Of a stretch of 27,491 bases of DNA, positions 9,550-13,848 are shown piece by piece (the stretch's first letter is position 1; each line of letters opens with the position of its first letter). The DNA lies in IMG/VR virus record IMGVR_UViG_3300038415_000462, positions 1 to 27,491 of that record. One strand, 5' to 3'. The position numbers and the translations under genes were made by a program. Source of the stretch: a virus. The notes beneath the pieces are model-generated. The model searched no databases. It saw nothing but the letters and a program-made list of their open reading frames with translations, and was not told where the DNA came from.

Positions 9550-9592
9550 AAGAGAGAGAGTGTGTGTGAGTGTGTGTGTGTGTGTGTGTGTG
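9550..9592. repeat. AG/TG dinucleotide microsatellite
   Basis: A run of about five AG units, four TG units, one AG and then about eleven TG units fills 9550-9592, immediately before the ribosome site (GAGG, 9592-9595) and start (9601) of the next gene. Read from a GTG at 9562 it is in frame with that gene and would add a Cys-Val-rich leader. Such tracts change length easily. Confidence 0.85.
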
Positions 9593-9600
9593 AGGATGCA

Positions 9601-10065
9601 ATGAGTAGAAAATATCCGAAAAGTGATCTACCTGAAAGTATCAGAAAACCGCATGCAGCAGCATTGAGAAATTATGCTAAAAATCCAGCAACGGGAAGGA
9701 ACGATGTGGTCAAAGACCAGGAAGAAGAACACGTAATACTCAAGAGCGAATCCAAACGCAAGCGAACTCAACCGGCCAAGACACCCACCCCGCGTCACAA
9801 ACCGATCGAGATGCCGAGCCAGGGACTGAAACAATCCGACATTTTGTCGTTCAACTGTGACGCCGAGAAGGCATTTGTGCGGCTGATCAGCCAGATCCTG
9901 CAGGAAGATGGTCCGCTGGCGTACCGCGACGCCGTGCGGGAGGCCGCCTTCGAGCTGAATGTCAGCACTGAAACGTCGAAGCGCTACTTGGAGAAACACT
10001 GCGCCCGGCGGGCAGAGTTCAGCATTGCGGATGGTTTCGTAACGCTGAGAAAGGCGAAGACATGA
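9601..10065 (+). CDS. hypothetical protein with winged-helix-like C-terminus
   Basis: A 154-residue protein. The first 85 residues are charged, Lys/Pro-rich and probably disordered (SESKRKRTQPAKTPTPRHKP). The last 65 make a compact helical domain (AEKAFVRLISQILQ, AYRDAVREAAFELNVSTETS, KRYLEKHC) ending in a FSIADGFVTLRK hairpin, a layout resembling a winged helix. DNA binding is therefore likely but not proven. The start at 9601 is preferred over the GTG at 9562 because GAGG is placed five bases before it. The gene is preceded by a microsatellite and ends overlapping the next by four bases. Confidence 0.65.
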   Translation: MSRKYPKSDLPESIRKPHAAALRNYAKNPATGRNDVVKDQEEEHVILKSESKRKRTQPAKTPTPRHKPIEMPSQGLKQSDILSFNCDAEKAFVRLISQILQEDGPLAYRDAVREAAFELNVSTETSKRYLEKHCARRAEFSIADGFVTLRKAKT

Positions 10066-10323: not shown

Positions 10324-10614
10324 ATGTCAATAAAATACATGGACATAAAAGAGTTTCAGGAATTCGGTTATCTCCAGGAACTGAACCGTCAATTCCTGCA
10401 CCCACTTGGTTTAGCTCTTGAGATCGTCATCGATGACGAATCAGGGAAAGCTAAACTGGGTCGCATTTGGGATTATAGCGAAGATCCAGAAGGAATGATC
10501 TTTGCCAAAGGACAAATTGACGCACTGAAAGCGGCGAGAGTTCAAGTCGCCTGGAACGAAAAGGCCGAAGCCAGGATCAAGAAGTTTGGCTTCATTATCC
10601 AGGATGAGTATTGA
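10324..10614 (+). CDS. conserved phage hypothetical protein
   Basis: A 96-residue protein with an ATTACCGGAGGTTAGT ribosome site. DIKEFQEFGYLQELNRQFLH followed by PLGLALEIVIDDESG, then LGRIWDYSEDPEGMIF form a pattern found again and again in phages of many hosts, without a known function. It is AT-richer than its immediate neighbours. The stop overlaps the HNH gene start (TGATG), so expression of the two is linked. Confidence 0.75.
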   Translation: MSIKYMDIKEFQEFGYLQELNRQFLHPLGLALEIVIDDESGKAKLGRIWDYSEDPEGMIFAKGQIDALKAARVQVAWNEKAEARIKKFGFIIQDEY

Positions 10615-11009
10615 TGCCGAACCGACCGCCATCCACGTGCAGGATACCTGGTTGCCCGCGTCTCAGTCATGGTGGCGGACTGTGCGATGAACACAAGGCG
10701 CAACGGCAACGGCAACTCGACGCCGAACGACCGACGCCAACTCAACGCGGATACGGTCCTGCATGGAAGAAGATCCGGGATGATCACCTCGAGAAGCATC
10801 TGTATTGTGTCGATCCATACCAGGTCCATGGCGCCAGTCAGGTCATGGCAACGGATGTTGACCATGTCATCCCGAGAAAAGAAGGTGGTACCGACGATGA
10901 AAATAATCTGCAGTCCCTGTGTCATGCCTGTCACAGCAGGAAGACGGCACGTGAAGACGGCCGGTGGGGCCGGAGACACCGCCGGATCTGGTCCAATGAC
11001 GACCGTTAG
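10614..11009 (+). CDS. HNH endonuclease next to terminase
   Basis: A 131-residue HNH nuclease. An N-terminal Cys segment (CRIPGCPRLSHGGGLCDEHK) is followed by a linker with YGPAWKKIRDDHLEKHLYC and the catalytic core ATDVDHVIPRKEGG, then DENNLQSLCHACHSRKT. The DH of the first motif, the N of the middle part and the last His are the metal and catalytic residues, and CHAC completes the zinc site. HNH proteins encoded just before the terminase in HK97-like phages are needed, with TerS and TerL, for cutting DNA at cos sites. That role is likely here because the next stretch carries tandem repeats. Confidence 0.9.
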   Translation: MPNRPPSTCRIPGCPRLSHGGGLCDEHKAQRQRQLDAERPTPTQRGYGPAWKKIRDDHLEKHLYCVDPYQVHGASQVMATDVDHVIPRKEGGTDDENNLQSLCHACHSRKTAREDGRWGRRHRRIWSNDDR

Positions 11010-11076
11010 GGGTATGGGGGTCGTTTTCCTTCGACCGTTTCACAGTGTACCGGTCGCCTGGTGCAATGCATTCACC

Positions 11077-11192
11077 CGCGAAATTCGAGCCGGGGGGGTA
11101 AAAACCGCGATATACAACAGGCGGGGGTATAAACCGCGTAATTCGGGCAGGGGGGGTGTTTTCCGCGTAATTATGCAGGGGGGTGTGTAGTG
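11077..11192 (+). repeat. four 29-bp tandem repeats, candidate cos/terminase recognition region
   Basis: Four units start at 11077, 11106, 11135 and 11164, each exactly 29 bases. Every unit begins CGCG, continues with an A/T-rich part (AAATTC, TATAC, TAATTC, TAATTA) and contains a G-run of five to seven bases. The last unit ends on the GTG start of the small terminase gene. Because 29 is not divisible by three and the units differ, it is not coding. Its place between HNH and terminase is where cos sites lie in many phages. The 67 bases before it (11010-11076) hold a small hairpin (GGTCG/CGACC) and no gene. Confidence 0.75.
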
Positions 11193-11693
11193 TCGCGCGG
11201 GAGGAAGCCACTACCGACGGCGGTGAAGGAGCTGAACGGGAACCCGGGCCACCGCGCGCTCAACAAGGCTGAGCCGCAGCCACCCCGGCCCAGCCGTGTA
11301 CCACCACCACCTAATCACCTGACCGGCGAGGCCAGGAAGAAATGGCAGAAGCTGGCCGGCCAGCTGCACCGGATGGGCGTGCTTACCGAAGTGGACCAGG
11401 ATGCGCTGGCGCGCTATTGTGTAACTTACCAGCGCTGGTTGCGCGCAGAGAAGGCGCTGGCCAAGGACGGAGATGTGTTGAAGACCAACAAGGGCAATTA
11501 CGTGCAGAACCCGTGGCTGGCGATCTCGAACCGGAGCCTGGGGCTGCTGAACGGCCTGGCGGCGGAGTTTGGGATCACGCCTAGCAGCCGGACCAGGGTA
11601 AAGGCCAACCCGCCCGAGGAGGAAGAGAAGCTGGAGAAGGAGCTGTTCGGGCCGAAGACGAAAATCATCAAGCCGGGAGGTACGAGTGGATGA
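11190..11693 (+). CDS. terS: terminase small subunit, P27 family
   Basis: A 167-residue protein starting at GTG 11190, with the AGGGGGG of the last repeat as ribosome site. RGRKPLPTAVKELNGNPGHR at the N-terminus, PPPPNHLTGEARKKWQKLAG, LHRMGVLTEVDQDALARYC and NPWLAISNRSLGLLNGLAAE are the signatures of the P27-type (HK97-like) small terminase. In the complex it recognises the packaging site and regulates TerL. It overlaps the following gene by eight bases. The ribosome site and gene start inside the fourth repeat may couple TerS production to binding of that region, which is a guess. Confidence 0.93.
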   Translation: MSRGRKPLPTAVKELNGNPGHRALNKAEPQPPRPSRVPPPPNHLTGEARKKWQKLAGQLHRMGVLTEVDQDALARYCVTYQRWLRAEKALAKDGDVLKTNKGNYVQNPWLAISNRSLGLLNGLAAEFGITPSSRTRVKANPPEEEEKLEKELFGPKTKIIKPGGTSG

Positions 11694-11955
11694 GTTGCGG
11701 TGCGATTATTGCCGGCAGCTATTTATAGCGACTGAGATCTTTGGCGGGTGCAGCTGCTGCGGGGCACCGGCGCCGGAAAAGATGAAGTTGGAATGGGGAA
11801 TATCACCGGTGGAAAGAGTGATCAGGAGCGGTTTCTTGACACCGAATGAGATCAGGGAGATGTTCAATTTTGAGAACCGGGCGCACGCTATGCGCTCCGA
11901 TGATAGCCTGCCAGGGCCGATCAGACTGGCAAGAAGAAAGGTTGACGATGAATAA
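11686..11955 (+). CDS. small zinc-ribbon-like phage protein
   Basis: An 89-residue protein starting at GTG 11686 (GGGAGGTAC ribosome site). An N-terminal CDYC...CSCCGAP segment matches small zinc-ribbon proteins that occur beside terminase genes in many phages. The rest has a short amphipathic part (ISPVERVIRSGFLTPNEIRE) and a basic C-terminus. No function is established for the family. The eight-base overlap with the TerS gene and eight-base overlap with the next small gene show it belongs to the packaging operon. Confidence 0.65.
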   Translation: MDELRCDYCRQLFIATEIFGGCSCCGAPAPEKMKLEWGISPVERVIRSGFLTPNEIREMFNFENRAHAMRSDDSLPGPIRLARRKVDDE

Positions 11956-12088
11956 ATTTTGGTGTTCGCTGTTCGGGCATAAATTCAACTTCATATGGGC
12001 AAAAGATAAAGAGGAGAAAATTGTGTTGCTATCCTGCTGTGAACGATGCGGAAAAAACCAAGCAGACAATAGATTTCATGTGGTGTAA
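11948..12088 (+). CDS. very small Cys-containing protein
   Basis: A 46-residue frame with an AAGAAAGGTTGACG ribosome site, beginning NKFWCSLFGHKFNFIW and ending with a CCERCGKNQ segment. Two Cys groups and a His could bind one zinc. It overlaps the preceding gene by eight bases and ends 11 bases before the large terminase, consistent with a real coupled gene. AT-richer than its neighbours. No family recognised. Confidence 0.5.
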   Translation: MNKFWCSLFGHKFNFIWAKDKEEKIVLLSCCERCGKNQADNRFHVV

Positions 12089-12099
12089 AGGGATAAGGG

Positions 12100-13848
12100 A
12101 TGCCTCGTAAGCTACCGGAGGCTGAGCGGTACGCACGGGACGTGGTTGCCGGAAGGATCGTGGCGTGCAAGCTGGTGCGCCAGGCCTGCCAGCGACACCT
12201 GGACGACCTGCAGAACGGTGCGGCGCGCGGGCTGGTGTTCGACCAGGCTGCGGCGCAGCGCGCTCTGAACTTCTTCGCGGTCTTACGGCACAGCAAAGGC
12301 GAGTGGGCCGGGCAGCCGCTGGTGCTGCAGCCCTGGCAAATGTTCATCACGTGGACCCTGTTCGGGTGGAAGCGGGCGGAGCATAAACGCTGGATCGTCG
12401 AGAAGAACGGCCAGCGCGAGGACAGTTCAGGCACGCGCAGGTTCCGAACGGCGTACCTGGAGGTGGCCAGGAAGAACGGAAAGAGCACCTGGGCGGCCGG
12501 GATCATGCTGTACCTGGCGTTTGCCGACGAAGTGGCGGGCGGGGAGCCAGGTGCGGAGTGCTACACGGCGGCGACGAAGCGGGACCAGGCGCGGATCGTG
12601 CACAGCGAAGCGATGCGGATGGTCAATAAAAGCAAGACGCTCAAAAGGCATGGTGTGGTTGCCTACAGAGACAACCTGCACTGCGCGGAGCGGGATCAGA
12701 AATTCGAGCCGCTAGGAGCGGACAGCGATACGATGGACGGGCTGAACGTGCACGCGGCACTGCTGGACGAGCTGCACGCGCACAAGACCAGGATGGTATG
12801 GGATGTGTTGGAGACGGCCACCGGCAGCCGGCGGCAGCCGATGATCATTGCGATCACCACGGCCGGCACGAACCGGCAGAGCGTGTGCTGGGAGAAGCAC
12901 GAGTACACCCGACAGGTGCTGGAAGGGAGCGTGGAAGACGATAGCTGGTTCGGGATCATTTTCACGCTGGACGAGGACGACGATTGGCAGGACGAGAAGG
13001 TCTGGTTCAAGTCCAACCCCAATCTGGGCGTGAGCAAGAAATGGGCGGACGTGCGCACGAAGGCGGCGCGGGCGAAGAGCATGACCAGGGCGCTGAACGC
13101 CTTCAAGCAATTAGAGTTAAATATCTGGGTGCACAGCGAGGTGAAGTGGATGAACATGGATGTCTGGGGGGCGTGCGCGGGGCCGGTGCCGGCGCTGAAA
13201 CTGCCCGAGCACGTGGCCGGACGGCCGTGTTACAGCGGGCTAGACCTAAGTAACAGCTCGGACATCACGGCACTGGTGCACGTGTTCCCGCCGCTGACGG
13301 AGGATGAGCCCTGGTTCGTGATCTGCCGGTTCTGGATCCCGGAAGACAACATCCTGGAGCGCAGCAAGGACGACGGAGTGCCATACGATGCATGGGTGGA
13401 AGAAGGGTATATCACGGCGACGCCGGGAAATACGGTGGACCAGGCGTGGATCCTGGAGGAACTGGGGGAGGATGCTCAACAGTTCCAGGTGATGGAGGTG
13501 CCATTCGATCCATGGGGAGCGGTGGGGATCGAGCCGAAACTAGCCGACATGGGGCTGCAGATGGTGGCATTTAGGCAGGGTTACGGCTCACTGAGCGCAC
13601 CGATGAAGGACCTGGAACGGATGGTGGCCAGGCACGAGATCGCGCACGGCGATAACCCGGTGCTGACGTGGATGGCGGATAACCTGATCGCGGTGGGAGA
13701 TCCGGCCGGGAACATCAAGCCGGACAAGTTGAAGAGCAAGGAGAAGATCGATGGAATGGTGGCGCTGATCATGGGGCTGGACCGGGGGCTGCGGAACCAG
13801 GGCGAGGCGGGGAGCGTGTACGAGGGGAGAGGACTGGTGATGATATAA
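12100..13848 (+). CDS. terL: terminase large subunit, HK97 type
   Basis: A 582-residue packaging motor. The ATPase domain has a Walker A ARKNGKST at residues 123-130 (preceded by RTAYLEV), a Walker B with catalytic Glu in HAALLDELHAH (218-228), and a coupling motif in IIAITTAGTN (about 249-258). The nuclease domain begins with GLDLSNSSDIT (380-390), whose Asp residues bind metal, followed by further acidic patches and a PFDPWGA segment. KEKIDGMVALIMGLDRG near the end is typical of the family. TerL pumps DNA into the prohead through the portal and cuts at the packaging site with TerS and the HNH enzyme. Length is normal for the family. Confidence 0.95.
   Translation: MPRKLPEAERYARDVVAGRIVACKLVRQACQRHLDDLQNGAARGLVFDQAAAQRALNFFAVLRHSKGEWAGQPLVLQPWQMFITWTLFGWKRAEHKRWIVEKNGQREDSSGTRRFRTAYLEVARKNGKSTWAAGIMLYLAFADEVAGGEPGAECYTAATKRDQARIVHSEAMRMVNKSKTLKRHGVVAYRDNLHCAERDQKFEPLGADSDTMDGLNVHAALLDELHAHKTRMVWDVLETATGSRRQPMIIAITTAGTNRQSVCWEKHEYTRQVLEGSVEDDSWFGIIFTLDEDDDWQDEKVWFKSNPNLGVSKKWADVRTKAARAKSMTRALNAFKQLELNIWVHSEVKWMNMDVWGACAGPVPALKLPEHVAGRPCYSGLDLSNSSDITALVHVFPPLTEDEPWFVICRFWIPEDNILERSKDDGVPYDAWVEEGYITATPGNTVDQAWILEELGEDAQQFQVMEVPFDPWGAVGIEPKLADMGLQMVAFRQGYGSLSAPMKDLERMVARHEIAHGDNPVLTWMADNLIAVGDPAGNIKPDKLKSKEKIDGMVALIMGLDRGLRNQGEAGSVYEGRGLVMI

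Follow-up and report, generated by a model that had tools for sequence, protein, structure and literature searches.

A predicted HK97/P27-type cos site with a tandemly repeated putative TerS-recognition box in a viral contig

The cosB region of phage lambda carries the repeats R3-R2-R1 together with an IHF site. DNA recognition by small terminases is debated, the several sites of lambda being set against a single ring on a single site in HK97. In HK97, the minimal TerS site has been mapped to +15 to +29 from the cut, and in the TerS-DNA complex, in which 28 bp are resolved, the DNA is threaded through the ring (PMC11331095); TerS clamps this one site through two elements, an N-terminal arm that occupies the minor groove and a C-terminal helix placed in the major groove. 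A second point of reference is offered by SfI, the sequenced termini of which lack the 10 bases TGCCCGCCCC between the two ends (PMC3636060). In SfV and SfII, TGCCCGCCCC is followed by ATCGTTTTTTTATACC and then by CGCGAAAA, so that the box starts at +17.

The DNA analyzed here, a 27,491-base virus record from IMG/VR (hereafter the window), contains in succession an HNH endonuclease gene, a predicted cos site, a P27-type TerS gene and a TerL gene, with portal, protease and head genes downstream of terL (Table 1). HK97 has the same order (HNH gp74, cos, TerS gp1, TerL) and also resembles the window in its upstream G-rich element, in the GAC and GC-rich 10-mer that precede the cut (the HK97 sequence ends in GACCGCCGCCAAA) and in the distance of its TerS site from the cut. 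However, it has one mapped site of a different sequence (CCCGATTTTTTT), lacks CGCGAAAT and has no tandem array. SfI and SfV share with the window a P27-type TerS and a box, CGCGAAAA, at +17 from a sequenced cut with a 10-nt overhang, but they have one box, no G-run and no array. The lambda cosB is comparable in that several repeats for terminase recognition lie shortly downstream of the cut (both the recognition and the cut being predictions in the case of the window) and near the terS gene, whereas the window has a TerS of another family (PF05119/phrog_83, not Nu1-type), a different repeat sequence and regular spacing. An IHF-assisted cosB of the lambda type was rejected, as a search for an IHF site between the repeats found no match to the consensus WATCAANNNNTTR in the window. 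From these comparisons and the evidence below, we propose that the region is probably an HK97/P27-type cos site with an amplified TerS-recognition box, that is, a multi-copy, cosB-like putative TerS-binding array.

Table 1. Observed and predicted features of the packaging locus in the window
Feature	Coordinates	Strand	Sequence or basis
HNH endonuclease gene, packaging type	10611..11009	+	PF01844, E=1.2e-13; phrog_144, E=5.5e-31
G-rich element at HNH stop codon	11007..11029	+	TAGGGGTATGGGGGTCGTTTTCC; counterpart of GGGTAGGGGG..TCAAAATCTCT in relatives and of the G-run upstream of the HK97 cut
Predicted 10-nt cos overhang (cosN-like)	11051..11060	+	CGGTCGCCTG; predicted top-strand cut 11060/11061; homology only
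16-bp spacer, predicted cut to first box	11061..11076	+	16 bp also in contig-end-anchored relatives
Repeat unit 1	11077..11105	+	CGCGAAATTCGAGCCGGGGGGGTAAAAAC; +17 from predicted cut; canonical cos box; matrix rank 1, 15.8 bits
Repeat unit 2	11106..11134	+	CGCGATATACAACAGGCGGGGGTATAAAC; matrix rank 8
Repeat unit 3	11135..11163	+	CGCGTAATTCGGGCAGGGGGGGTGTTTTC; matrix rank 4
Repeat unit 4	11164..11192	+	CGCGTAATTATGCAGGGGGGTGTGTAGTG; overlaps terS start codon; matrix rank 2
Small terminase TerS, P27 type	11190..11693	+	PF05119, E=4.1e-28; phrog_83, E=6.1e-50; N-terminal GRKPxPT arm
Large terminase TerL	12100..13848	+	PF20441; PF03354; phrog_9, E=2.6e-175

The four 29-bp repeats had been reported in a first-pass annotation of this DNA, and reading of the sequence, a repeat search and TRF all recover them at the same positions. 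Self-match reaches 66% at period 29 but falls to 36-40% when the period is set to 28 or 30. The mean pairwise identity of the units is 0.64; for four-unit arrays with periods of 24-40, the corresponding maximum is 0.47 elsewhere in the window and 0.50 across 60 simulated genomes. The 29-bp array is real and far beyond chance. A coding repeat was rejected, 29 not being a multiple of 3. The CGCG starts and G-runs of five to seven described earlier are likewise seen (7, 5, 7 and 6 in units 1-4), as is the extension of the last unit to the terS start codon, a GTG at position 11190. Across 15 units from the window, L006, L007 and L008, the CGCG, two A/T positions and an AT are kept in nearly every unit, as is the G-run near positions 16-22, with variable bases intervening. 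This narrows the conserved part to a box of the form CGCG-WW-AT-N7-GGGGG-T, of which the array units are tandem copies. When a weight matrix derived solely from 22 boxes of phages that do not belong to the window's clade was scanned over both strands of the window, the score of the first unit, the top site, exceeded the maxima of all 20 simulated genomes; the scores of the other three are unremarkable singly, and it is their position that stands out.

A nucleotide search of the array region against 50,697 phage records gave no match. The box itself, usually in one copy, is present in dozens of phages whose packaging genes comprise HNH, P27-type TerS and TerL, and in these relatives the layout 3' of the HNH gene is constant: the G-rich GGGTAGGGGG..TCAAAATCTCT, then AC and a GC-rich 9-10-mer, then 16 bases, and then one copy of the box, CGCGAAAT(T/G), after which GGGGGTA often comes. 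The window has the same G-rich element, AC plus 9-10-mer, 16 bp and CGCG-WW-AT box. A loose scan of viral contigs with the box pattern returned nearly all chance matches, but yielded two further phages, L192 and L211; the HNH alignment was too divergent for scanning, and a scan with a single HNH returned known relatives and L377. In Chloroflexi genomes, TerS matches are few, and some of them are accompanied by a single box. In the Chloroflexi genome to which L107 belongs, two TerS copies (L421, L422) are separated by about 1.7 kb; one has an in-frame TGA, and the other is preceded by a single cos box. In a narrow search of the terminase literature, with most subscription papers outside its reach, no earlier description of the box was found, and a text match to its sequence proved to be only a cloning primer.

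The position of the box in relatives bears on what it might do. Replication iterons are typically direct repeats of 20-30 bp, a size into which the units fall, but an array that sits in the packaging module and matches the cos boxes of phages whose ends are known or inferred is exceedingly improbable as an iteron set. The overlap of unit 4 with the terS start codon might point to an operator regulating terS, via TerS or another protein. This is a very unlikely account of the repeats, since the single boxes of relatives lie far from terS and no sigma-70-type promoter was found in the stretch 10900-11300. Regulation by TerS of its own synthesis, as had been suggested, is also unlikely to be the main role, because many relatives keep the box directly after the HNH gene, at cos, with terS about 2 kb downstream. 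The same persistence beside the HNH gene might mean that the box is recognized not by TerS but by the HNH endonuclease or TerL; against this improbable alternative stands the TerS site of HK97, mapped at the same distance from its cut. We accordingly favor TerS as the protein for which each box would be a site.

The distance between box and cut is the feature that ties the array to cos. An AC/N10/N16/CGCG register is common to the window, SfI/SfV, a Klebsiella phage, L006, L008, L281 and L391, and all array phages examined have the layout AC/N9-10/N16/box, with the overhang register of L007 not an exact fit. Because the window has this shared register (GTAC, CGGTCGCCTG, N16, CGCG), its overhang and cut are predicted to lie as given in Table 1. 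The natural ends of contigs provide a further line of evidence. In one scan of 80 TerL-bearing contigs, 51 had an end upstream of terL at a distance of no more than 4 kb; the set consists of these upstream ends, and right-hand contig ends behind the HNH gene fall outside it. Nine of the 51 begin exactly 16 bases before a box, and one more begins 17 bases before one. If ends are taken as independent and evenly spread, the chance of nine ends at one base is about 5e-20 after allowing for 4,000 positions. Two others, L064 and L272, start a further 9 and 10 bases upstream, where the second nick of a staggered cut would be expected. These contig ends are read-outs of linear DNA ends in the relatives; within the window's own clade, no contig ending at the predicted cut was found. 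In L317 (positions 1-110), the contig opens with adapter-like sequence, which we take to resemble an Illumina adapter, and the junction lies exactly 16 bases ahead of a degenerate cos box, as would follow from ligation to a physical DNA end. Taken together, the +17 position of the box relative to sequenced or inferred cuts and the +15 to +29 interval in HK97 lend good support, by position and comparison, to the earlier suggestion that this is probably a cosB-like array at cos.

Most relatives have one box, but tandem copies recur. Close relatives with the same terminase retain the repeats: L004 and L006 have four units with a period of 29, L007 has three at 29 bp, and L008 has four at 28, 29 and 30 bp. 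Farther afield, L281 (TerS 56% identical) and L391 have three units at 27 bp, whereas two units are found at 24 bp in L192, L378, L393, L396 and L414, at 26 bp in L411 and at 30 bp in L211. An HNH gene beside the array was confirmed for L192, L211 and L281 only (upstream of the array in L211 and L281), the other arrays being assigned by sequence layout. An array with helically phased wrapping was rejected, since the period varies between phages. The same variation (24, 26, 27, 28-30 and 30 bp) argues against the earlier proposal that the period suits a helical or ring-wrapped complex, as does the threading of DNA through the ring in the solved relative. One could also suppose that only unit 1 works, as an ordinary cos box, and that units 2-4 are passive duplications, arising, for example, by slippage between G-runs: one box suffices in most relatives, and L007 has one unit fewer. 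Yet diverged relatives retain CGCG-WW-AT and the G-run in every unit despite drift of the spacer, and arrays recur in several phages with different periods, which makes purely passive copies unlikely. The reading that we prefer remains an array in which the additional units are likewise TerS-recognition boxes.

The window TerS has a basic, strongly conserved N-terminal GRKPxPT arm, invariant in the alignment. A structural model (pLDDT 70) gave as its first PDB match 8pop, the HK97 TerS-DNA complex, with a TM score to the target of 0.56-0.62 and a nonsignificant E=0.79; a sequence search of solved structures with this TerS gave no relevant match and no solved TerS. On the basis of sequence, we propose the following organization. 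From the HNH gene onward, the region would comprise the G-rich element, a staggered cut with a 10-nt 3' overhang, the 16-bp spacer and four direct copies of the box. TerS would bind each box, the A/T-only positions of which fit reading through the minor groove. One ring per 29-bp unit is possible, because the 24-30 bp period approximates the length of DNA resolved in the HK97 complex (28 bp). Unit 1 would determine the register of the cut. The role of units 2-4 is the least secure part of this scheme; they would increase the occupancy of the site by TerS and so might serve packaging initiation or the holding of the motor on the newly cut end. The array is thus best viewed as a multi-copy version of the HK97/P27-type cos recognition site, probably a docking array for the DNA-recognition protein of the packaging motor. 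More tentatively, several lineages might independently have made tandem arrays (two to four units of 24-30 bp) of a widespread cos box, on which several TerS rings would be aligned. For HK97/P27-type terminases, no description of such a multi-ring packaging complex was found in the literature searched. A natural multi-site cos of HK97 type makes the question of small-terminase recognition testable: each box might hold one ring, loading might be cooperative, or the additional copies might be spares. Further, a box that is conserved and lies at a fixed distance from the cut allows the cos ends of uncultivated phages to be predicted by a simple rule, and metagenome contig ends already read them out.

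Several smaller observations concern this locus and its counterparts. In L008, a second HNH-type gene (2019-2816; 265 aa in the longest reading) with zinc-finger-like motifs separates the packaging HNH gene from the cos boxes, in a stretch that lacks the usual G-rich element; this gene is possibly a homing-type insertion at cos. When the stretch 11007-11060 was compared among the near-identical L003, L004 and L005, the small differences fell exactly in the G-rich element, and, in L005, the predicted overhang also lacks one base. Part of repeat unit 3 has the same sequence as the G-rich element of L004, GGGGGGTGTTTTCC. The gap between terS and terL in the window (11686-12088) contains one or two small ORFs with CxxC motifs; in L008 terL directly follows terS, and in L006 the gap is about 1.5 kb. 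Upstream of the packaging genes, a (GT)16 run (9560-9592) lies at the start of an ORF (9562-10065), where it would encode CVCVCV, and the segment 6569-8404 encodes a ParB-like protein of 611 aa with ParB_N and HTH_ParB domains.
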